The notes under the pieces were generated by a model, which worked only from the letters and a program-made list of their open reading frames with translations, made no database searches and had not been told where the DNA came from. Position numbers and translations under genes: made by a program. Source: Limisphaerales bacterium (GTDB lineage: Bacteria; Verrucomicrobiota; Verrucomicrobiia; Limisphaerales; JADLHS01). Taken from it: a stretch of 32,908 nucleotides of DNA. The stretch is taken from NCBI GenBank assembly GCA_020848635.1, contig JADLHS010000373.1, positions 1-32,908 on the forward strand, read 5' to 3'. Shown one piece after another: positions 4,464-23,983 of this stretch; the stretch's first letter is position 1; every line of letters begins with the position of its first letter.

Positions 4464-5096
4464 TCACGGTGTCCGCGGCAACGTGGCCACTGGAATATCA
4501 ATCCGCCAGGCACCCCGCAGTTGCCCGAGTTTGAAACCCGTCGCGTCGTCCTGCGGATACAAGCGTTGAATTATGGCAACGTTTTCGGCCGAAATGTCCT
4601 TGCCCGGCTCGCCATGACATTTCAGGCAAAGTTCATTGTTGAGAATGATTGGTGCGAAGAAGGTTGCCGTGCTCGAGGTTAGATTGGTCACGAGCGGCGG
4701 GGGCGGATTTGTGCCAGTCAACGCCGCTGCAAAATGATTCAGGATTGCCAACTCCGTCGTATCGGCGCGATCCGCGGGATTGCGCGACTTGTGCGTCATG
4801 CGCCGGATGGTGACGCCATGCTTACCGGCCATCCCCGCCGTGAGCGGGGAGGCGGCAAGTGAGCAGAACGGCAACGCGTTGCTCACACCGCCTTGCTGGA
4901 TTGCGGCCTGGAGATTAGAACTGAGCAGGCTGAAGGTTTCCGCGGCGATAGACTTGCCAATTTGAATAGCGCCCTTTTGTACCTCAGCAGACGGGGCTGC
5001 GGGGACTGCTGCGGTGGGCGTTGTTGACTCAGGAGGTTTTGAACAACCCACCATCAGCAGCAGCGGCAGAACGATCCCGGTTGCCAGGCATTTCAT
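4464..5096 (-). CDS. DUF3365 (Tll0287-like) c-type haem lipoprotein
   Basis: The product is about 210 residues. The start at 5096 overlaps the anti-sigma stop as ATGA and gives a lipoprotein signal (basic residue, hydrophobic LPLLLMVG, acceptor Cys18). A Pro/Ala/Thr-rich linker (residues 20-38) is followed by a DUF3365-like domain with the conserved FCSLAASPLT segment near residue 78, the RRMTHKSRNPADRAD loop near 99-112, and one haem-c motif CLKCH at 157-161. In this family the domain is a PAS-like periplasmic haem sensor, often the sensory part of kinases or cyclases. Here it is free-standing and tethered to a membrane. Its place between an anti-sigma factor and a kinase-less response regulator suggests it senses redox state or ligand for that circuit, which is inference. 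Confidence 0.85.
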   Translation of the reverse strand: MKCLATGIVLPLLLMVGCSKPPESTTPTAAVPAAPSAEVQKGAIQIGKSIAAETFSLLSSNLQAAIQQGGVSNALPFCSLAASPLTAGMAGKHGVTIRRMTHKSRNPADRADTTELAILNHFAAALTGTNPPPPLVTNLTSSTATFFAPIILNNELCLKCHGEPGKDISAENVAIIQRLYPQDDATGFKLGQLRGAWRIDIPVATLPRTP

Positions 5097-5338
5097 TTGA
5101 TTGGATGCTTTTCCTTCCACTTTTCGCGAAGCGTAGCGTGGAGTTTGGAGCGAAACGCGACCGGCAACTCATACGGCTGGCCGTTTTTGTAGAGCGTGAT
5201 GGTCTTGCGGATGTTGTCCACGACTACCTGGCAAGGGTCGCATCCCGCCATGTGCTTTTCGAACTCCTCGCAAATGGCCGGATCAACCGTGCCATCCACG
5301 TATTCGTTCAACATCCTAAGCAGTTCTTCGCACTTCAT
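5093..5338 (-). CDS. Zinc-finger (zf-HC2/ZAS) anti-sigma factor
   Basis: This is an 81-residue protein with the ZAS signature H29-x3-C33-x2-C36 and an additional Cys3 in the opening MKCEELLRMLNEYVDG helix, which is typical of anti-sigma domains that clamp ECF sigma factors. Many relatives continue into a membrane helix and a periplasmic domain. This one stops after a basic C-terminal tail (KLHATLREKWKEKHPIK) and has no membrane segment, so it should be cytosolic and could be redox- or zinc-controlled like RsrA. It lies 70 bp after the sigma factor gene, and its stop codon overlaps the start of the haem lipoprotein gene (5093-5096), implying translational coupling. Confidence 0.88.
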   Translation of the reverse strand: MKCEELLRMLNEYVDGTVDPAICEEFEKHMAGCDPCQVVVDNIRKTITLYKNGQPYELPVAFRSKLHATLREKWKEKHPIK

Positions 5339-6053: not shown

Positions 6054-6321
6054 GCTCAATTTGACCAGCTGAGTGTATGGGAAAGCAGGTTGCCCGCAAG
6101 GCAACGCTTCTGAGTCCGTGCCGCAACGCGCGAATGCAAGGCACACAGGTTGGGCCGGAACGAGTTCGAGCAGCCATATCTAAATCAAACACCCGATGTG
6201 TCGGCGTGCCGTCGTAGCCAAACCGACGCGGCGGTAACGCGAACCAACTTGCGCTACTTTGCTGGGAGGCTTCGCCAGTTTGGCATCGCTGTTGCAAAGC
6301 ACCCTCCGAGATGACAGGATA
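6054..6321. promoter_or_regulatory. Divergent intergenic region between sigma operon and XRE-sensor operon
   Basis: This 268-bp gap separates the minus-strand sigma gene from the plus-strand regulator gene, so it must hold both promoters. A 6-bp inverted repeat (GTTGCC at 6089-6094 and GGCAAC at 6100-6105) is visible on the sigma side. No confident -35/-10 pair was recognised. Confidence 0.35.
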
Positions 6322-7383
6322 ATGCCCATGCGCGACAGCCTCCCAGCTCCACATCCGGTGCTCACGCGCCGACTGGCTAACCAGTGGTCCCAGGTGGAAC
6401 TGGCGGGACGCGCCGGCATTTCCCGCGCGGCAGTCAATGCCATCGAGGGCGAACGCCTTTTACCGTCCATCGCCACAGCCTTGGCGCTGGCGGCGGGATT
6501 CAAGTGTTCGGTCGAGGAATTGCTCGGACGCGGCGGGACGGCCGAGGCGCACAGCCCGGAATGGGCGTGGACACCGCGAGTTGAGCCTTGTCGCTACTGG
6601 GAAGCGGAGATCGGGGGGCGCAGACTGCTTTATCCGGTCGAAGGTATTTCGTTGAATTGCATTCCGCCTGACGGCGTGTGGCCCCACGGTTTTGGTTGTG
6701 ACGTGGGTGCACATACTGCCGAGACGACATTGATTCTCTCCTGCTGGGATCCCGCTGCCGGCTTGCTCGCCACCGAATATGCGCGGGCCAGTGGGTTTCG
6801 CTTGATCGTGCTTTCGCGAGGCAGCAGCAAGGCCCTTGATTTGTTAATACGCGGCTTGGTACACATCGCGGGATTGCATCGTACGACTCAGGAACAACCG
6901 AACCGGAACGCAGAACCGGTGCGACTACAGCTTGGCGGCGGCTATCGGTTGGTACGGGTCGCACAATGGCAGGAGGGGTTGGCGCTGGCCGCCCACAACC
7001 AAACACGCTCGACCCGTTCCGTCGCTCGGAGCGCCCGGTGCCGGGCCTTGCGCGAAGCGGGTTCGGCGGCACGGGAATGTTTGGACGAGTTGCGCGCACA
7101 CGCACCTGGCCGCACCAGACACAGCGATACGGCGGTGGCTGAACCAGTTCGCGACGGCTGGGCTGATGCCGACGTCTGCGTGCAGTTGGCCGCTGAAGAA
7201 GCTGGGTTGAATTTTCTGCCGGTGCATGCGGAAACATTGGATTTTTGCTATTCCAGTGCATCGGAGCATGACCCACGAATCCAAGCGCTGATCCGGCTTT
7301 TGCACAGCCGCTCTTACCGACGGTTGGTCGGCGATCTGCCGGGCGGCGACGCCCGACGAACCGGGGAGACAATCGCCGCCTAA
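6322..7383 (+). CDS. XRE-family regulator with PBP-like (PF12727-type) sensor domain
   Basis: The product is about 353 residues from the ATG at 6322, which has an AGGAT sequence just upstream; a second ATG follows two codons later. Residues about 11-65 form an XRE helix-turn-helix ([37 protein letters not shown]). The rest resembles the periplasmic-binding-protein-like domain of one-component regulators found with molybdate/tungstate transporters: a [20 protein letters not shown] segment, [10 protein letters not shown] near the middle, and the characteristic end [33 protein letters not shown]. That last part matches the pattern of a regulator that binds an oxyanion or cofactor. It starts a plus-strand run that includes a TupA-like protein, which supports an oxyanion-sensing role. 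The ligand itself is inferred. Confidence 0.82.
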
Positions 7384-7391
7384 ACACCTCC

Positions 7392-8108
7392 GTGAAGCAA
7401 GTCTGTAGCAACAATAACTCGCCGGGGCGCGCCTTCACCCTGGTCGAACTTCTGGTTGTTATCGCGATCATTTCAGTGCTGGCGGCAATGTTGCTGCCTG
7501 CTTTGGCTAAGGCAAAGGAAAAGTCCCGGACCGCTCAATGCATTGGCAACTTGCGGCAATGGGGGCTGGCTTTTCGGATGTATGCCGATGACAACGACGA
7601 TTTTCTCCCGCGCCGTGGTCAAGGCGTCCAGGCGCTGTTTCAAATCGATCGTCCTACGGACTGGTTCAATGCGTTGCCGCCGTATTTTGGCTGCTCATCC
7701 TTTCAGCAACTCGTTTTAAGCAGCAATAAACCTGCTGCACACGGGCAGTCTGTTTTCGTCTGTCCCACTGCCAAGGATGCGGGCGGGACTTATTTTCTGC
7801 CTTACGCCATGAACATGAATCTCTCGCCATGGAATCTACCAGTGGCGACCAAGTTCAGCGAGGTGCTGCAACCGAGTTTTGTGGTGGCCCTGGGTGATGC
7901 TCCTGGACCTTATTCAGCGACGTTTCCATCAACCCGCGCTTACAGCGTGGTCGCACCGCATTCCTCCCGGGTTAATCTGCTTTTCCTCGGCGGGCAGGTG
8001 CAATCGTTCGCAGGTTCCTACGTGGGCTGTGGCATCGGCGATCCGCGTCGCGATGATGTGCGCTGGTTGACCGGCACTGCCAGTGACACACAAGCCAGCG
8101 CCTATTGA
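7392..8108 (+). CDS. Type II secretion pseudopilin-like protein (prepilin N-terminus)
   Basis: The product has 238 residues and appears to start at GTG 7392, since no in-frame ATG lies upstream of the prepilin segment. The first 35 residues carry the prepilin processing site and helix: [20 protein letters not shown], with the conserved Glu at +5. This is the verrucomicrobial/planctomycete family with an [20 protein letters not shown] segment and a C-terminal H-X9-DG motif. Here that motif reads [12 protein letters not shown], so the usual Asp is Gly. It begins 8 bp after the regulator stop and ends 4 bp before the TupA-like start, so it is tightly packed in the operon. It may be a secretion pseudopilin or a surface fibre subunit. 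Confidence 0.85.
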
Positions 8109-8112
8109 CCAC

Positions 8113-8961
8113 ATGAGGAACAAACTCATCATCTCCTTCGTCTGCACTTCAGTTGTGCTGTTCGCCTCATGCAGTCCAAAGAATTCAACACCCGCCGATT
8201 CCCGGGTGGTGCGGTGCGCGGTCATTGGCGGAATGACCATGACGGGGTTGTGGCCGGAGATTGCCAAAAAGTTCGAGGCTGAAACTGGAATTAAAGCGGA
8301 AGTGGTCATTACCGGCCCCCGGCCTGAACTCGACAAGGCGATGCGTGAGGGTAAGGCCGATTTCCTCACGATGCACTCGGGCGATATTACCACGGACCTG
8401 GTCGCTGATGGTTTTGGCGTGAACATGCGCCCATGGACCCGCAACGAATTGTGCATCGTTGGCCCGCCCGACGATCCAGCCCAAGTCCGGGGCATGACAA
8501 CCGGTGCAGCCGCGCTCCGCAAAATCGCAGCGAGCAAATCACGCTTTGTGGATTTCCAAGGCATCGGCAGCCGGGAACTCGCCCACAATTTGTGGCGGCT
8601 CGCTGGGGTTGAACCGAAAGGAGATTGGGTCATTCGCGACGATACCGTTTCCAAATGGAATATCTTGCAATTCGCGCGGAGCAACCACGCGTATGTGGTG
8701 GTCGGTTACATTCCAGCGCAGACGGGCAAGATGTTTGCAGAGGGTATGAATATTCTCGTCAAGGGCGACCCGATCATGCGACGTCCGTTCATCGTCATGG
8801 AAGCGAATCCGAAGAAACTTCCCCACGCAAATTATGCCGGAGCAAAAGCGCTGTCTGATTTCCTGCTTTCTGCAAAGATGCAGAATTTTCTCTTAGAATT
8901 CGGCCGTCAGACCAATGGTCCCGGGCCGTTGTTCTTTCCCGTTGAAACCGCTCAACAATAA
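8113..8961 (+). CDS. TupA-like (tungstate/molybdate-type) substrate-binding lipoprotein
   Basis: The product has 282 residues. The ATG at 8113 gives a lipoprotein signal peptide (MRNKLIISFVCTSVVLFASC, acceptor Cys20). The mature part follows the TupA/PBP_like_2 plan: a first strand CAVIGGMTMTG, FEAETGIKAEVVITGP, GKADFLTMHSGD, then NELCIVGPPDDPAQVRGMTTGAAALRKIA, a long central helix region, and the C-terminal GDPIMRRPFIVMEANPKK and NYAGAKALSDFLLS segments seen in tungstate-binding proteins. TupA partners (TupB permease, TupC ATPase) are absent from the window, so it may act as a sensor or scavenger, or use a distant transporter. The adjacent regulator has a related ligand-binding domain. The ligand is not proven. 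Confidence 0.8.
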   Translation: MRNKLIISFVCTSVVLFASCSPKNSTPADSRVVRCAVIGGMTMTGLWPEIAKKFEAETGIKAEVVITGPRPELDKAMREGKADFLTMHSGDITTDLVADGFGVNMRPWTRNELCIVGPPDDPAQVRGMTTGAAALRKIAASKSRFVDFQGIGSRELAHNLWRLAGVEPKGDWVIRDDTVSKWNILQFARSNHAYVVVGYIPAQTGKMFAEGMNILVKGDPIMRRPFIVMEANPKKLPHANYAGAKALSDFLLSAKMQNFLLEFGRQTNGPGPLFFPVETAQQ

Positions 8962-8994
8962 AAACCCATTCCCAAAGACTCGAAATCAAACGCA

Positions 8995-9762
8995 ATGAAA
9001 ACGACTCCCAGTATTTTGATCACCGCCGTTTTTGGTCTGCTGGCCACCTGGCCTCTCGCCGGAAAGGCGGACACCTCGTTCACCGTGAACAACTCGACAG
9101 CGGACAGCTTTCTGTCCGGCAACGCTCCCACGCTTAATTATGGGGGTGCTGGAACTCTGGCAATTTCATCCGTGTCTTCACCCAAAGGCGGGTTCGACAG
9201 CGTTCTCAAATTCAACCTCGCCGGTGCGACCAGCCAGTTCAATTCAACCTACGGAGTCGGCAACTGGCAGATCAGTGGAATAACGCTCAAATTGGCCAGC
9301 AGCTTCGGCACGAGCGGGGCGGTCCCCAGCAACAATAACCTCAACACCGTCAGCGGCGGCAACTTTGGCATCACGTGGTTGGCGGGAGACAGTTGGCTCG
9401 AAGGGGCCGGGGGTGGAAATGGTGCTGCTAATGGAGCCGTAAGCTTCAACTCAATCTCCTCGTTGTTTGCCAGCGGCTCGGATCCGCTGGGAACGTTCAC
9501 CTACACGCCGCCAGGCAACAACGTTTATGCCAGCTACACTTTACCGCTCACAACCAGCCTGTTGAGTGACACTGCGACGGGTGGGGACGTTTCGCTCTAT
9601 TTCTTCGCGGCAGATAATCAAGTCAGTTATCTGTTCAATTCCCGGAGCTTCGCCAGCGCAAACCCGCAACTGGTCGTCACGGTCATCCCAGAACCGAGCA
9701 CACGCGCACTAGCGGCTTTGTCGCTCGGCAGCTTCATGTGGTTGCGCCAACGCAAATCATGA
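8995..9762 (+). CDS. PEP-CTERM secreted protein with DNRLRE-like beta domain (paralogue 1)
   Basis: The product has 255 residues. It has a signal peptide (MKTTPSILITAVFGLLATWPLAGKA), a beta-rich domain and a C-terminal sorting signal: PEP at 232-234, a hydrophobic helix (ALAALSLGSFMW) and a basic end (RQRKS). Such proteins are processed by an exosortase, which is not in this window. The domain contains LNYGGAGTLAISS and GGFDSVLKFNLAGATSQF, resembling DNRLRE-type surface domains that follow an 'ad-fl-N-G--L-v-, ---LLkFdL' pattern. It is a clear paralogue of the next gene (shared VLKFNL-GATS and ISGI segments). Its stop overlaps the next start as ATGA, which implies coupled translation. Confidence 0.8.
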   Translation: MKTTPSILITAVFGLLATWPLAGKADTSFTVNNSTADSFLSGNAPTLNYGGAGTLAISSVSSPKGGFDSVLKFNLAGATSQFNSTYGVGNWQISGITLKLASSFGTSGAVPSNNNLNTVSGGNFGITWLAGDSWLEGAGGGNGAANGAVSFNSISSLFASGSDPLGTFTYTPPGNNVYASYTLPLTTSLLSDTATGGDVSLYFFAADNQVSYLFNSRSFASANPQLVVTVIPEPSTRALAALSLGSFMWLRQRKS

Positions 9763-10688
9763 GCGGACGACCCGCAAAGTATTCTTTGTTCCTATGCCTC
9801 TGCGCTTCCGCGCTGGCTCAAGCGCAGGTCACTTTCACGGGCACAACTTCTGATGATGCGTTTCTGGCGACAGGTTCGCCCAGCAATCCCAAAGGGACCA
9901 ATCTGACCGCGCTAAACTTCGGCCTGGGGGGCGTGCTCCTTGTGGCGTCTGCGGCATCCACCAACGGCGAGTTCCAGAGCGTTCTCAAATTTAATCTCTC
10001 GGGCGCAACCAGTCTTTTCCATACGTCTTACGGCACCGGTTGGACGATCAGCGGAATCTCAATCGAGTTGACCAGCAACGTCGGCACCGCCGGAACTCAA
10101 CCGGACAATCCCCTGTTCAATCCCGTCTGTGGCGGCAATTTCGTAATCCAATGGTTGGCTGACGATAATTGGGTGGAAGGATCGGGCCGGCCAAATTTTC
10201 CAGCGACCGATGGGGTGACTTACAGTTCGCTCAGCAATCTACTTGCGGGCGGACATGAAATTCTATGCACAAACACCTACTCACCTCCCGGCAACAACGT
10301 CCATCAGACGTGGTCATTGCCACTTCAGGAGGGTCTGCTGCAGGATATTGCCGATGGGCGGGCGGTATCCCTCCGCCTTTACGCGGCGGATGATCAAATC
10401 AACTATCTCTTCAACTCGCACAATTTCGGAAATGGCAATGAACCATTGATTCACATCACCGCCGCCCCGCTGCCGAAGATTCTTTCCGGCCATTTGGCGA
10501 ACGGCTTCTTTCATCTGGTCGGAATTGGCGCCGCCAACACGTCCTATGAGGTGCAAGCCAGTCCCGACCTCGCCACAACCAATTGGCAGACACTGGGAAC
10601 AACCACTGCGGCTGACACCGGGGAAATTCAATTCGACGACATTGCCACCACAAATCAACCACAGCGTTTCTACCGAATTACCCGTTGA
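9759..10688 (+). CDS. Secreted DNRLRE-like protein with FYR-type C-terminal domain (paralogue 2)
   Basis: The product has 309 residues from the ATG at 9759, which overlaps the preceding TGA and is followed by a signal peptide (KYSLFLCLCASALAQAQ). Residues about 20-235 parallel the upstream protein: FQSVLKFNLSGATSLFHTSYG, ISGISIEL, GGNFVIQWLADDNWVEGSG, YSPPGNNVHQTWSLPL and AADDQINYLFNSHNF. The C-terminus differs. Instead of a PEP-CTERM signal it has a small beta domain with YEVQASPDLATTNWQTLGT and a final QPQRFYRITR, a very common end in verrucomicrobial secreted proteins. So this copy is probably released or held by another mechanism. It lies 26 bp upstream of the Rieske gene. Confidence 0.78.
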   Translation: MSGRPAKYSLFLCLCASALAQAQVTFTGTTSDDAFLATGSPSNPKGTNLTALNFGLGGVLLVASAASTNGEFQSVLKFNLSGATSLFHTSYGTGWTISGISIELTSNVGTAGTQPDNPLFNPVCGGNFVIQWLADDNWVEGSGRPNFPATDGVTYSSLSNLLAGGHEILCTNTYSPPGNNVHQTWSLPLQEGLLQDIADGRAVSLRLYAADDQINYLFNSHNFGNGNEPLIHITAAPLPKILSGHLANGFFHLVGIGAANTSYEVQASPDLATTNWQTLGTTTAADTGEIQFDDIATTNQPQRFYRITR

Positions 10689-10714: not shown

Positions 10715-11458
10715 ATGAAAATACCGCGCCGCCGTTTTGTGAAACTGCTGACCTTCGGCACAGCCACTTCCCTGGTGGCTGGAAAACTATGGCAACGCGA
10801 TCTGCTTGCATTCTGCGAGCTTCCACCTGGGGAGGAAGGCGCGGTCCTCAAGATTCGGCTGAGCGATTATCCCGCGCTGCAACAGGCTTACGGCTCGGTC
10901 AGATTGGGTATCAACCCGATTAGTTCGGAGTATCCGGACGGCGACTTCTACCCGATTCTGATCAATCGCGATGGTCTGGGGGACTTTCATGTGTTGGATT
11001 GTGAATGTCGCCATGCTGGGTGCGTGGTGCCGGCGTACGACAGCACCCAATTCGTCATCCTCTGTCCCTGCCACGGTTCACGTTATGACGTTGACGGCAG
11101 TGTAGTGGGTGGGCCGGCGACGGAGCCGTTGTACCAATACCAATTTGAGCTCGACGGAAACGATACCTTGGCCATCCACATTCCGTGCTGGGCTTTTAAG
11201 GCGCAACTATCCGTCGCGCCGGGTGGGGCGGGTTCGCGGGTGCAACTGGACTTCCCGACTTTTCCACAGGTGACCTATAGAGTCGGCTTTCGCGAGCATT
11301 TACAGGACGTTTTGGGCCCGGCCTCCTTTGCGGCAACCCCGAGCGGCCCGGCCAATCAGACCAGCCTGACCGGACTCGGAACGCCTGCAACCATCTATTT
11401 AGATCGCACCACGCCAACCGGTTATTACACCGTCAGCATGGACGTTTTGGAAATATGA
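10715..11458 (+). CDS. Tat-exported Rieske [2Fe-2S] protein, high-potential (disulfide) type
   Basis: The product is 247 residues from the ATG at 10715, opening with a Tat signal (IPRRRFVKLLTFG). The cluster motif is C98-x-H100-x2-C103 and C117-x-C119-H120-G-S. The extra cysteines C103 and C119 are positioned like the disulfide of cytochrome bc1/b6f Rieske proteins, and GSRYD carries the Ser and Tyr that raise the potential there. The following GSVVGGPATEPL also matches that group. After the Rieske fold (to about residue 155) a C-terminal beta-rich region of some 90 residues ends with TGYYTVSMDVLEI. No cytochrome b or oxidase subunit is nearby; the neighbours are secreted proteins and a TupA-like lipoprotein. 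Its 3' end overlaps the convergent ArsR gene by 26 bp. Confidence 0.88.
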   Translation: MKIPRRRFVKLLTFGTATSLVAGKLWQRDLLAFCELPPGEEGAVLKIRLSDYPALQQAYGSVRLGINPISSEYPDGDFYPILINRDGLGDFHVLDCECRHAGCVVPAYDSTQFVILCPCHGSRYDVDGSVVGGPATEPLYQYQFELDGNDTLAIHIPCWAFKAQLSVAPGGAGSRVQLDFPTFPQVTYRVGFREHLQDVLGPASFAATPSGPANQTSLTGLGTPATIYLDRTTPTGYYTVSMDVLEI

Positions 11459-11792
11459 AGCCAGGCTTTAGAGGTGGACCCCGTTGATTACCGGGGAAGC
11501 TTGGCGAACGGAAGCTGCAACAGTCCAGTTCCAACACGTTCTTGTTCGCGGCCAACTCCTCCTTAAGGCTGGGAACACCACGCCAAAGCCGCTCCTTGGC
11601 CGATTGGTCCATTTCCAGCAAGCTGGCCTTCTTCAGGAGTCGCAGGTGCTTGGACACGTTGTATTCCGAAATCTCCGACCGCTGCGCGACGGCATTCACG
11701 CTCAACTGCTCCTTGAGCAACAGGCGCATGATCCGCGGGCGATTCATTTCGCCCAAGGCTCTCAGTACTGCCATGCACTTTACGCCGGTCAT
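11433..11792 (-). CDS. ArsR-family winged-helix transcriptional regulator
   Basis: The product has 119 residues. The winged helix runs from about residue 5 to 75: VLRALGEMNRPRIMRLLLKE, the recognition region LSVNAVAQRSEISEYNVSKHLRLLKKASLLEM, and the wing SAKERLWRGV. A paired cysteine (LELDCCSFRSP, residues about 88-98) follows the DNA-binding part and might serve as a metal or redox site. The start could be M1 (11792) or M7 (11774); neither has a strong ribosome-binding site. It is convergent with the Rieske gene and overlaps its last 26 bases. Confidence 0.78.
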   Translation of the reverse strand: MTGVKCMAVLRALGEMNRPRIMRLLLKEQLSVNAVAQRSEISEYNVSKHLRLLKKASLLEMDQSAKERLWRGVPSLKEELAANKNVLELDCCSFRSPSFPGNQRGPPLKPGFIFPKRPC

Positions 11793-12114
11793 GCGCCCGA
11801 GCTAAACGGTAGGTCACCCGCCCGGCAAGATGAGTCCCGCGTTGCGTTCGGGTTATCGCTATTCGGCGCTCGGCTCGCGACTTACTACCATGAGGTTGCC
11901 CGCGCTGGGGAATCGCAGCCGGACTCGCCTGAACGAAAAGCGCAAGCGAGCACAAACATTTCGCAATTGGGCGACGAGCGAATGCAAGGAACGCAACGTT
12001 CCGCAAACCTTCAGCAACTGACCGGGGGCGAACCGCATCCTTCGTTTGATAACGTGAATTCATCGTGACGAGTGACTGCGAGGTCCAGACCGGCGTTGCG
12101 GTGAGAATCACACT
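11793..12114. other. Gap between ArsR and secreted-protein genes; no gene supported
   Basis: This 322-bp stretch separates two diverging genes and must hold their promoters. Open frames in it look like chance frames: they have no family features, signal or ribosome-binding site. No RNA gene or strong hairpin was seen. Confidence 0.5.
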
Positions 12115-20683: not shown

Positions 20684-22168
20684 ATGAAACCTTTGACCCA
20701 GCCGGTCGCTTTCTGCCTCTGCTGGCTTTGGCTTTCTGCGGGGTGCGGTTCCGCCGCTGAAACAATCCGGGTGCACTTCTCGGGGGGTGAGTCTGGGCAT
20801 TACCTTGCCTGGCGAGGCCAGCCCGTCATGCTCGTCGGTGATTCTGTCACGCAGGGCTGGATGGAATGTGGCACCAACTTTGATCAGCGGGCATATGTGG
20901 ACGCGCTGGCATCGCGCGGTATCAACCTGCTTATGCTTTGGGCGTTCAAGGGCACGGACGCGAAACGCCAGGGGCAGGACCGACGCATCGGCTACGACGC
21001 GCCGGAACTCTGGCCCTGGATGGGCGCGCCCGACGCCGGCTCCTGTGATCTGCACCGCTTCAACCCCGTTTATTTCGAGCGCCTTAAGGAATTGGTGGGC
21101 TACGCGGAGTCAAAAGGGATCATCGTTCTGATCACGGTGCATGATGGGTGGACGAAGACCTGCTTTGACGGTCATCCGTTCAATCGTGGCTGCGGTAACG
21201 GCCCGCTCGCTCACCGGGAGCAATACGTTGAACTGGACGATCCCCAGCGCGAAATGCCGGCGGTTTTTGACCCGGCGTGGAATCGGCGTCAGCAAAACCA
21301 GTTTTTCCAGGAACGGTTTTGTGGCGAAATCATTCAGACTCTGGCGGCGTTTGGCAACGTGATCTATGAGATGTTCAATGAAGGGGAGTGGTATGATCCG
21401 GGGGAGCGGCGGCGGCACGAACAGCATTTTCTGGCGTTCTTCCGGGCTCATTGCAACAACCTGCTGCTCTCGAATACCGACGGCATCGCGGGCGACCAGC
21501 CCCATGCCGACGTACGAGTGGATGTCGTGACGCTCCACCCGCAACCGTGGGTGGGACACCATCCGGATTTTGCCCGCGGCTTTTTTTCCGCGCCGCCAAA
21601 ACCCTATTTGTGTAGCGAGCCGGTGCCTGAGTTCGATGGTGCGAAACCCTCCCTCGACGAAGTGCGGCGGAGCCTGTGGGAAATCACGTTCGCCGGCGCC
21701 GGCTGGGTAAATCAAAACGATTCGAGCTTCGGCTGGGATCAACGCGCGGCCATATCCGCCCAAGCCGCGGCGCGTGACAAAGCCTATGACTACGCCGGTC
21801 ATTGCGCGCGGTTTTTCAACCATTCGGGCGTAAGGTTCTGGGAGATGTCGCCCCAACCCAGGCTGTCCAGCACGGGTATTTGCCTCGCCCAGCCCGGACA
21901 AACGTATGCCGTTTACGTGGCGGACCAGGGCGGTTTCACGGTTGATCTTTCGGCCGCGGCAAAATCCAAGTTGGCGGGTCGGTGGTTCAATCCGCGAACG
22001 GGCGAATTTCAGGCTGCCGGCGTTATCGAAGGCGGCAACGCCAAACAACCATTCACCCCGCCGTTTGCCGGCGATGCGGTGCTTTATCTAGGACGCCAAG
22101 CCCGGTCGGAAGCCAACCCCGGTGGCGTTGCGAATCCACGCTACTCCACTCGGACTTTGACCCGATAA
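20684..22168 (+). CDS. Putative glycoside hydrolase lipoprotein (TIM-barrel, DUF4038-like, with C-terminal collagen-binding-like domain)
   Basis: The product is 494 residues from the ATG at 20684. The signal peptide ends in a lipobox LSAGC (Cys21), so it is a lipoprotein. The catalytic part resembles clan-A glycosidases: YLAWRGQPVMLVGDSVTQGW, GINLLMLWAF, IVLITVHDGW, a candidate acid/base in IYEMFNEGEW (E233), and a candidate nucleophile in PYLCSEPVPE (E312). The C-terminal region YAVYVADQGGFTVDLSAAAKS then GRWFNPRTGEFQ fits the putative collagen-binding/beta-sandwich domain that often caps DUF4038-type enzymes. The substrate is unknown, probably a plant or algal polysaccharide. Its last 28 bases overlap the convergent gene 22141-23781. 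Confidence 0.75.
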   Translation: MKPLTQPVAFCLCWLWLSAGCGSAAETIRVHFSGGESGHYLAWRGQPVMLVGDSVTQGWMECGTNFDQRAYVDALASRGINLLMLWAFKGTDAKRQGQDRRIGYDAPELWPWMGAPDAGSCDLHRFNPVYFERLKELVGYAESKGIIVLITVHDGWTKTCFDGHPFNRGCGNGPLAHREQYVELDDPQREMPAVFDPAWNRRQQNQFFQERFCGEIIQTLAAFGNVIYEMFNEGEWYDPGERRRHEQHFLAFFRAHCNNLLLSNTDGIAGDQPHADVRVDVVTLHPQPWVGHHPDFARGFFSAPPKPYLCSEPVPEFDGAKPSLDEVRRSLWEITFAGAGWVNQNDSSFGWDQRAAISAQAAARDKAYDYAGHCARFFNHSGVRFWEMSPQPRLSSTGICLAQPGQTYAVYVADQGGFTVDLSAAAKSKLAGRWFNPRTGEFQAAGVIEGGNAKQPFTPPFAGDAVLYLGRQARSEANPGGVANPRYSTRTLTR

Positions 22169-23781
22169 AAACCTGGGGTGTCGGTCGCCCCGTTGGTAAA
22201 CGTCTTTGTGCCGTTGTCGCCGACGAGGTTCGTGAACCCCGGTACACCCTGCCACGAACCCAGCGCAAGATTCGTCCGCCATTCCAGATCATAAAGAAAC
22301 TGCTGTCCTTCGTGACCGGCGCACGCGGCATTCACGGTGGGGAACCTGATGGCGACCCCGCCGTCAGTGTGCGCAATCCCCATCAACCCGCGGCTGGGCT
22401 CGTTCACGCCAATGGGGGACGAGGAAATCCACGCGACGTCCGCGTAGTCGCCCGCTTGCCCGCTGGTGGCGGGGTCGAATCGCAGCCGGGTGATCAAACC
22501 GCTGTAGGAGTTCGAGCCGGCCAGATTGAGTTCATACGTCCGGAATTGCTGGTCGGCGATGATTGGAAATCGGAGGCTGCGTGCCTCGCTGAAACCGTTG
22601 TCGTTGAAGGTTTCCCAGAATAACTGCCCGATGCGGCGGCTGGGCGTGGCAATCCGATGGGCCGCGCGGAGGTATAGCTTGGGCACCTGGGTCGCCTCGT
22701 AGGCGCACATTGGCGACAACATCGTGGGATCGCTGCTTTGGAGGTTGATCCGGACGCGCCCGTTCAACGGCCAGCCGGAATCGCTGGCTTGCAGGTAGGA
22801 CCAATGCTGGCGGTCGGTGCAGAAGCGGAAGTCAGCGCCGGGCCGGTACGGTTGCGCGTAAACCCAGGCGCGAATGGCCTGCAGCGTTCCGAGGATGAGT
22901 TGATAGCTGTAGGTGTATTCGATGTTGTAGTCGAGAATCTCGGTGTGCAGCGGCGAGATATAGCCGGTGGGATCGTTGTTCGGTCCGCCGCTGCCCGGCG
23001 GGCCGGCGAAGCCACCGAGAAAGCGGACGGCGCCCGGATGGTAAACCCCCAGGCCCCAGCCGTTTGTGTCCACGAGGGCCGCCCAGCTTTCGGTCGCGCG
23101 CCAGCTCTGCCATGGGGGCGGGACGATGGGGAAATTGGTCAGCGCGCGGCCGGTGAAGGGCGCGTCGCCCGCGTAACTGAACAAGCGATACAGCCGGCCA
23201 ATCGTGTACACGGCTGGCAACTCCTGGTCGCGTCCGGTGAACTGCTGCGTGGTATCCGTGCGCTGGTTCACGAGCCGGTTGCTTACGGTGACGACGTTAC
23301 CGTTCAGGGTGATCCACGATTCAAACGTGCATTCGCCTGGCACATTGTTCAGCGCCCATTGCATGGGGCGGCATTTGACGTAAAGGCTCTGGCCGGTATT
23401 GGTATGGGCTAGAACCAGTGAGGGATGGTAGTAGGAGTCACCGGTCTGGATGGGGTTCCACGGCCAGTTGGCCCATGTGGGATTCGCATTGTTGCTGGGA
23501 TTGTAGGGTTGCGGGCCGGAGTAATACGATTGCTGGATCTGCCGCCCAAGGTCGTAATTGTTGATGACGTTGTCAGTGATGCCGGACTTGGACAGGTAAG
23601 TAATCGAACCGCCCTTGCCTAGGTCAATTCCCACCTTAACCACGCCGTTGTCGAGGTAGCTTTCCACCGCGAAGGCGCAGCGGGCCGCAACCATGATCAG
23701 CCCGGGCATCGCCCGAATCAGAGGGGAAAGCGCGCGGTTCAAATATGCGCGCGGCGTGGACGATCCCCACAACGCTTTCAT
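22141..23781 (-). CDS. Large secreted conserved protein with CBM-like and FYR-type C-terminal domains
   Basis: The product is about 546 residues from the ATG at 23781, chosen because a signal peptide follows (ALSPLIRAMPGLIMVAARCAFA); M58 of the longest frame is an alternative. The N-terminal domain includes SYLDNGVVKVGIDLGKGGSI, DLGRQIQQSYYSG and MQWALNNVPGECTFESWI, a pattern I recall from secreted proteins in acidobacteria and verrucomicrobia with no assigned function. Residues about 350-470 have a carbohydrate-binding-like segment (GQLFWETFNDNGFSE and ITRLRFDPATSG). The C-terminus (LEWRTNLALGSWQGVPGFTN, ending PGFYRVKVRVE) is the common verrucomicrobial FYR-type domain. It converges on the glycoside hydrolase gene, so a shared polysaccharide theme is possible but not shown. 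Confidence 0.75.
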   Translation of the reverse strand: MKALWGSSTPRAYLNRALSPLIRAMPGLIMVAARCAFAVESYLDNGVVKVGIDLGKGGSITYLSKSGITDNVINNYDLGRQIQQSYYSGPQPYNPSNNANPTWANWPWNPIQTGDSYYHPSLVLAHTNTGQSLYVKCRPMQWALNNVPGECTFESWITLNGNVVTVSNRLVNQRTDTTQQFTGRDQELPAVYTIGRLYRLFSYAGDAPFTGRALTNFPIVPPPWQSWRATESWAALVDTNGWGLGVYHPGAVRFLGGFAGPPGSGGPNNDPTGYISPLHTEILDYNIEYTYSYQLILGTLQAIRAWVYAQPYRPGADFRFCTDRQHWSYLQASDSGWPLNGRVRINLQSSDPTMLSPMCAYEATQVPKLYLRAAHRIATPSRRIGQLFWETFNDNGFSEARSLRFPIIADQQFRTYELNLAGSNSYSGLITRLRFDPATSGQAGDYADVAWISSSPIGVNEPSRGLMGIAHTDGGVAIRFPTVNAACAGHEGQQFLYDLEWRTNLALGSWQGVPGFTNLVGDNGTKTFTNGATDTPGFYRVKVRVE

Positions 23782-23983
23782 GCGGCCACCCGCGCAGGGG
23801 GGATGTAATCCGGACATGATTTTGACCATGGCAAAATCGTTGGCGAACAGCGAAACAACGTCAAGCGAAAGGGCAGCCAAGTGGATGGGCGGTTACGTCC
23901 GAACCCGGAGGACCCGGCGTGGGCCGTGGTTGCCAAACACCCAGAGAATTGACCTGGGCGTTGGGTTGTGGTCAAACTAACCG

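Follow-up and report, generated by a model that had tools for sequence, protein, structure and literature searches.

The gene at 10715-11458 (+) of a 32,908-nucleotide stretch of Limisphaerales DNA (contig JADLHS010000373.1; the whole stretch is called the window below) encodes a Rieske protein of 247 residues with an additional beta domain at its C-terminus. The reading that we favour, with moderate confidence, is that the product is a Tat-exported [2Fe-2S] carrier that acts outside any cytochrome bc complex, is sorted by means of its tail and transfers electrons at high potential.

The Rieske gene and its product

The gene was defined by its translation, Pfam, a family alignment and dN/dS. 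Rieske (PF00355) was the only Pfam family that matched the protein up to an E-value of 1 (E 2.5e-10, above the 20.3-bit cut-off). A relative from the same genus (L034, in L071) is 77.3% identical to the window protein, and dN/dS for this pair is 0.16 over the whole protein, the Rieske part giving 0.11 and the tail 0.25. These ratios indicate that both parts are under selection in the pair, the tail less tightly. The existence of such a relative under selection, together with the 31 family matches described below, indicates that the window Rieske is a real gene.

The reading frame begins MKIPRRRFVK. Residues 1-36 (10715-10822, +) form a twin-arginine type N-terminus, whose arginine pair is invariant in 24 aligned relatives and which we take to be a Tat signal. 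No lipobox was seen by eye at C34, and export as a lipoprotein was rejected. The protein is probably exported. C34, C96 and C158 are three extra cysteines that are also present in L034; by eye, C96 and C158 occur in none of the 22 other rows of the 24-row family alignment. These three cysteines could form further disulfides.

The Rieske domain covers residues 37-158 (10823-11188, +) according to Pfam and a structural model. The full-length model has a mean pLDDT of 68, and the Rieske domain is mostly confident except at about residues 66-78. Matches to solved structures within residues 37-161 were led by a Chlorobaculum Rieske protein (8hn2; Z 12.9, 3.2 A over 106 residues), followed by PetC3 (5cxm, 12.0), kuste4569 (11.8) and AioB (11.0). 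Cluster loop 1, C98-R-H100-A-G-C103, lies at 11006-11023 (+) and is defined by the translation and the family alignment. Cluster loop 2, C117-P-C119-H120-G-S122-R-Y124, lies at 11063-11086 (+), carries the potential-raising Ser/Tyr pair and continues to D after Y124. The cluster ligands C98, H100, C117 and H120, the disulfide cysteines C103 and C119, and Ser122 and Tyr124 are thus all present. The earlier note had called this a bc1/b6f-type Rieske protein from its CRHAGC, CPCHGS and GSRYD motifs, and the residues, the matches to PetC models and the structural matches to b6f and bc1 Rieske proteins bear this out.

Cluster residues and predicted potential

Conservation of the cluster was tabulated for 28 of the 31 family members, with L038, L058 and L059 outside the table. 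All four ligands are kept in 27 of the 28, the disulfide pair and the Ser in addition in 23, and the Tyr as well in 10. By eye, L038 keeps the ligands, the disulfide pair, the Ser and the Tyr; L058 and L059 keep the ligands and not the disulfide pair. Seven family members are without the full disulfide pair (L048, L058, L059, L060, L061, L062 and L063), and L063 is also without one cluster ligand. A role as a high-potential carrier is therefore not universal in the family.

Passages of a study of two Kuenenia Rieske proteins tie the Ser and the Tyr to a raised Rieske potential (PMC12954380). The same passages give measured values of +303 and +335 mV for these two proteins, the Tyr being absent from the +335 mV protein, and list effects of -130 mV (Ser) and -65 mV (Tyr) for yeast Rieske mutants (PMC12954380). 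According to a study of arsenite-oxidase Rieske proteins, disulfide and potential are not always linked (PMC3758308). From the Ser/Tyr pair and its published effect we infer a high potential for the window Rieske, and by analogy with Rieske proteins that have the same residues it may be about +0.3 V.

A C-terminal tail probably related to a lineage module

About 90 extra residues had been reported behind the Rieske domain and left without assignment. They are present, as residues 159-247 (11189-11455, +), and can now be placed as a putative divergent form of a module that many proteins of this genome carry at their ends. Modelled alone, the tail is an all-beta domain of six strands with a mean pLDDT of 79.7. 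This model, the kind of prediction that the earlier note had proposed, gave only generic FN3/Ig-like matches to solved structures (best VIA-align Z 5.8, to an FN3 domain), and neither Foldseek nor a search of the PDB with a tail profile gave a match at E<0.001. The tails of 24 family members matched nothing in Pfam except for one stray match (0.0091) in one member. A known Pfam domain was rejected on this basis.

The module is about 65 residues long. At least 83 matches were found in the window's own genome (G000) and at least 56 in G001 among the best 150 candidates scored per genome; the 83 include several in one reading frame and do not stand for 83 proteins. No match was found among the 150 best candidates from each of two outgroup genomes, a 13.2-Mb Nannocystis and a 10.1-Mb Streptomyces genome. 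Within the phylum the module is patchy, occurring in at least 59 of 194 genomes at E 1e-5 (profile A6, best 30 candidates per genome scored). The window itself has two copies, at 10470-10682 (+) in the gene 9738-10688 and at 22156-22395 (-) in the gene 22141-23880. Pfam and NCBIfam searches with 23 copies gave nothing better than E 0.014.

In 21 of 21 fetched proteins of the own genome, 1 to 6 residues separate the end of the module from the stop codon; these proteins are the best matches down to C252 minus L195 (G000:C679), the two window copies and a copy on C103. Copies lie within 5 residues of the stop in 18 of 24 tabulated module rows and are internal in the other 6, including the own-genome protein L195, so that 'C-terminal only' is too strong a description. 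The window tail sits at the extreme C-terminus, as module copies mostly do. One module-bearing protein (L240 954-4484, G000:C252) has 1176 residues and 16 CxxCH motifs and ends in the module.

PEP-CTERM, T9SS tails and MYXO-CTERM are C-terminal sorting domains. The module resembles them in being a domain at the extreme C-terminus that is common to many proteins. It differs from them in its length of about 65 residues, in having no tripartite transmembrane tail by eye and in its internal copies. No PEP-CTERM or T9SS model was among the weak NCBIfam matches to the module, and the one anchor-type match was to choice_anch_C, in a single member (E 0.028).

The link between tail and module was examined from both sides. 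Searching with a profile of the 24 tails gave 18 Rieske tails in 57 genomes, followed by the tails of other proteins. Fourteen stretches were fetched, and the six best (E 8e-15 to 1e-11) apparently belong to one dioxygenase-like family. These closest non-Rieske relatives (L182-L186 and L188) resemble protocatechuate dioxygenases; four have a twin-arginine start and two are fragments. The only one that was family-scanned, L182, had protocatechuate 3,4-dioxygenase beta as its best model (75 of 296.4 bits). Weaker matches of the tail profile fall in the module, 'Y-x-V ... S-x-x-L ... W ... RFYR'.

The reverse comparison used profile A6, which consists of 23 of the 24 module rows (L046 was left out) and holds no Rieske or dioxygenase row and neither of the tail-found L189 and L192; L187 and L195, which are in it, were fetched because of the tail search, the L187 row being a different gene there. 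A6 recognised 14 of the 24 tails alone at E<1 and 4 at E<0.001. None of the 288 controls scored at E<1 (24 Rieske parts, 24 reversed tails and 240 shuffled tails); the Rieske parts had been cut by tail length, and at least one tail is not the exact end of its full-length alignment row. At E<10 the profile matched 20 of 24 tails; among the controls, 1 of 24 reversed and 4 of 240 shuffled tails scored at that level. A wider module profile of 26 proteins, with no member of the Rieske family or the dioxygenases and with two proteins that came from the tail profile (L189 and L192), recognised 17 of 29 family proteins at E<1 and none of 29 reversed or 145 shuffled sequences; 6 of the 17 matches show a stretch outside the tail. 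Comparison of the tail profile with the module profile gave a probability of 88.6% over 39 columns, and 90.9% with a slightly wider set. Searched separately, the tail and module profiles ranked the same glucanase/chitosanase PDB chains first (E 0.098 for the tail, 1.3e-4 for the module), covering these chains only in part.

The tail might instead be unrelated to the module, having converged on a short 'Y-x-V ... L ... W' stretch and merely stabilising the Rieske domain of a plain periplasmic carrier. This would fit the generic fold matches, the length of the profile alignment (just 35-39 columns) and the weak scores of the window tail alone, E 1.7 with A6 and 0.45 with the wider set (3.8 for the whole window protein). 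The link to the module thus rests on the family and on intermediates. Controls did not score as 14 of the 24 tails do, however, and non-Rieske proteins (L182-L194) carry tails of intermediate similarity at their C-terminus or close to it. The agreement in PDB chains also argues against convergence, with a low E-value for the module profile only. We consider convergence doubtful, and the window tail family is probably a distant homologue of the lineage C-terminal module.

Genomic context and molybdenum

The Rieske gene is the last of a same-strand run of six. The run begins with a regulator of HTH_3 and PBP_like type (6259-7383, +), which resembles the C-terminal part of a molybdopterin biosynthesis protein model (68.1 of 534 bits). 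It is followed by a pseudopilin-like protein with an N_methyl match in the family scan (7392-8108, +) and a TupA-like, tungstate/molybdate-type substrate-binding protein (8083-8961, +; SBP_bac_11 over the cut-off, TupA E 9.3e-13 and 48.2 of 400 bits). Next are a DNRLRE/CBM96 protein with a PEP-CTERM-like end (8995-9762, +; CBM96 over the cut-off, DNRLRE and PEP-CTERM below) and the DNRLRE-like protein 9738-10688 (+), which carries the module copy, clusters with 8995-9762 and has no Pfam or NCBIfam match of its own. A gap of 26 bp separates it from the Rieske gene. A convergent regulator of ArsR/HTH_20 type (11433-11792, -) overlaps the 3' end of the Rieske gene, and the called gene 11484-12068 is probably spurious. 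The only CxxCH protein among the called window genes is Tll0287-like and lies on the other strand (4464-5120). There is none in the Rieske run, in agreement with the earlier view that the operon encodes no cytochrome partner.

The regulator, pseudopilin, TupA-like and DNRLRE cassette also occurs without the Rieske gene, at L068, L069 and L070, no pseudopilin being called in L070. ModA lies beside the cassette in L068, and a ModC-like protein is found in L070. No permease was seen alongside the cassette (6259-9762) in the window or in L069. The gene order at L034 is a ModE-type regulator (below the cut-off), the Rieske gene, ModA and ModB (both over the TIGR cut-off), and an ABC ATPase that is truncated where the contig ends; ModA starts 17 bp after the Rieske stop codon. 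The two genus members with the Rieske gene thus both have molybdate/tungstate-type genes next to it. The window and L034 loci have no other gene in common, generic ABC similarity aside, which makes the repeated molybdenum or tungsten context suggestive. Clustering found no homologues of the L034 ModE, ModA or ModB, or of the window regulator, pilin or binding protein, in the other fetched loci, and this context is therefore limited to the genus. As judged from these gene arrangements, expression of the Rieske gene in this genus is probably tied to molybdate/tungstate status.

The same neighbours would be expected if a molybdenum enzyme of the arsenite- or iodate-oxidase type, with its catalytic subunit encoded elsewhere, used the protein as its Rieske subunit. 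AioB, the small subunit of arsenite oxidase, shares the Rieske fold with the window protein (3.2 A over 110 residues at the Z-score of 11.0), and the molybdenum context in this genus is a further likeness. The window protein nevertheless reached 26.8 of the 95.65 bits required by the AioB model, and no catalytic gene of a molybdenum enzyme was found beside the Rieske gene by reading the open reading frames of the window and of L034/L071. Membership as an AioB subunit was rejected on these two points. The restriction of the molybdenum context to the genus speaks against this explanation, as does the fact that the molybdenum-enzyme-like operon of this genome has a Rieske protein of its own. The other two Rieske proteins of the genome lie in near-copy operons, L001 (G000:C157) and L002 (G000:C653), each with a 4Fe-4S protein and a molybdopterin-enzyme-like gene, identified by eye. 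A wider view of L001 (L220) shows by eye an MFS-like gene after the operon. We regard a molybdenum-enzyme subunit as unlikely.

Comparison with known Rieske classes

The genome is 92.6% complete and gave no match to either cytochrome b model, PF13631 or PF00033, each of which was positive in 8 of 14 control genomes. Cytochrome b is likely, not certainly, absent from the genome, 7% of which is unseen. The earlier note had named a cytochrome b/c1 operon lacking only this subunit as the case that would overturn its reading; without a match to either model there is no sign of such an operon. The C-terminus likewise matched no bc1 extension. The genome has two NrfD genes, one of them inside the L219 cluster, which we read as a putative alternative complex III.

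The window protein has the Rieske fold, the 2 Cys/2 His ligands and the disulfide cysteines of bc1/b6f Rieske proteins. The best curated models were those of b6f PetC, with 62.9 of 154 and 61.6 of 250 bits; other bc1/b6f Rieske models gave 39.7 of 97.4 (the bc1 model) and 38 of 275 bits. All four scores are below the cut-offs. Membership of the bc1/b6f class was rejected on these scores together with the missing cytochrome b matches. A subunit of a quinol-oxidising bc1, b6f or Rieske/cytochrome b complex, encoded apart from its cytochrome b, would explain why PetC models score best and why the top structure matches are mostly b6f and bc1 Rieske proteins, but the scores lie far below the cut-offs and the genome has an alternative-complex-III-like cluster and no detected cytochrome b, so that this origin is very improbable. 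The protein probably stands outside any bc complex and seems complex-free.

PetC and QcrA, the Rieske proteins of b6f and bc1, are like the window protein in fold, cluster loops, disulfide cysteines and the Ser/Tyr pair. Many bacterial PetC and QcrA proteins also have a twin-arginine start. The window protein differs from them in its scores below the curated cut-offs, in its tail of about 90 residues and in coming from a genome where cytochrome b was not found. PetC3 of Synechocystis is located outside the main b6f complex. This extra Rieske protein of the plasma membrane is the second-best structure match (2.7 A over 98 residues at Z 12.0). Unlike the window Rieske it has Ala and Phe at the Ser and Tyr positions, and its deposited chain of 110 residues is without such a tail.

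Rieske-type ferredoxins of ring-hydroxylating dioxygenases are defined by the lack of an export signal and of a disulfide pair. The window protein differs from them in its twin-arginine start and C103/C119, and the models for 3-phenylpropionate dioxygenase ferredoxin were below their cut-off.

Distribution of the family and its neighbours

Matches reaching query residue 235 or beyond define the Rieske-plus-tail architecture. There were 31, the window's own included, in 26 of 96 related genomes, and 2 of the 6 genomes of the genus have it. A scan of named genomes gave six full-length relatives among the best 80 loci (L072-L077), from metagenome bins labelled Verrucomicrobia, Verrucomicrobiaceae or Akkermansia. 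Across a phylum sample of 288 genomes at least three full-length copies were found, in at least two genomes besides the own genome, and at least three more genomes match the Rieske part only; these are lower bounds, the best 9 candidates per genome being scored. The Rieske-plus-tail protein is an order-level family in varying surroundings. A literature search found no paper on it.

The 31 loci (30 fetched and the window) have no conserved partner gene: clustering found no family besides the Rieske in more than about a third of them, and the larger shared families are generic, namely ABC ATPases, sigma factors and dehydrogenases. Most of the loci have no redox neighbour in the same-strand run; the runs comprise 55 gene calls, of which 21 were Pfam-scanned, and some redox neighbours may be missed. 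A long protein that by our reading may have a barrel fold is encoded directly upstream of the Rieske gene in L035 (10565-13291) and L040 (9292-11256, truncated at the contig end), and at a distance of one gene in L061 (2053-4512). Family scans with the available models left the barrel-like part uncovered. A PSCyt1 cytochrome domain is present on the protein in L035 and L061. The barrel-like gene of L061 is preceded by a protein with seven CxxCH motifs, a cupredoxin lies downstream of the Rieske gene in L035, and a cytochrome c lies three genes upstream of it in L047.

Proteins matching the barrel fusion occur in at least 86 of the 96 genomes among the best 10 candidates scored per genome, many over the N-terminal cytochrome part only. 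The best match listed for the own genome is 27% identical over the barrel part and has no cytochrome part. The own-genome barrel relative on C659 has multiheme cytochrome genes around it. At this locus (L217, G000:C659), multiheme CxxCH proteins surround a barrel-like protein of 712 residues, resembling a porin-cytochrome conduit. Clusters of porin and multiheme cytochrome genes in Verrucomicrobia, with planctomycete-type cytochromes, have been proposed to serve extracellular electron transfer (PMC5615132). Those clusters come from the same phylum and look similar to L217, whereas the word 'Rieske' occurs 0 times in the main text of that paper (PMC5615132).

Possible role of the tailed Rieske protein

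The carrier that we favour would act in three steps. The Rieske protein, folded and loaded with its cluster, would cross the inner membrane by the Tat route. Its tail would then keep it in, or sort it to, the compartment of the other module-bearing proteins, either the cell surface or the outer membrane on its periplasmic side. There it would shuttle electrons one at a time, at high potential, with an exported enzyme or cytochrome at one end and the respiratory chain at the other. We consider it likely that the protein transfers electrons outside the cytoplasm. That it feeds electrons to or from an extracellular partner, as had been suggested, is possible, with indirect support from the neighbours in a few relatives and from the shared tail.

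A bolder version of this idea treats the tail as a phylum-level C-terminal sorting domain, which would bring to the outer surface both Tat-folded metalloproteins (the Rieske and the intradiol-dioxygenase-like proteins) and the 16-CxxCH cytochrome. At the surface or across the outer membrane, the Rieske protein would then act as a relay, working with the cytochrome/barrel fusions and cupredoxins. We offer this as a tentative proposal with a low chance of being right in full. If true, it would describe an electron-transfer chain outside the cell in which a Rieske protein replaces multiheme cytochromes or works next to them.

The presence of a high-potential Rieske protein is usually taken as evidence for a bc complex. 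The family described here keeps the bc1-like cluster residues, and no cytochrome b was found in the genome examined here. Its tail points to an abundant C-terminal domain of the lineage, with 23 copies going without recognition by Pfam or NCBIfam, and to a possible sorting route of the phylum that can be tested.
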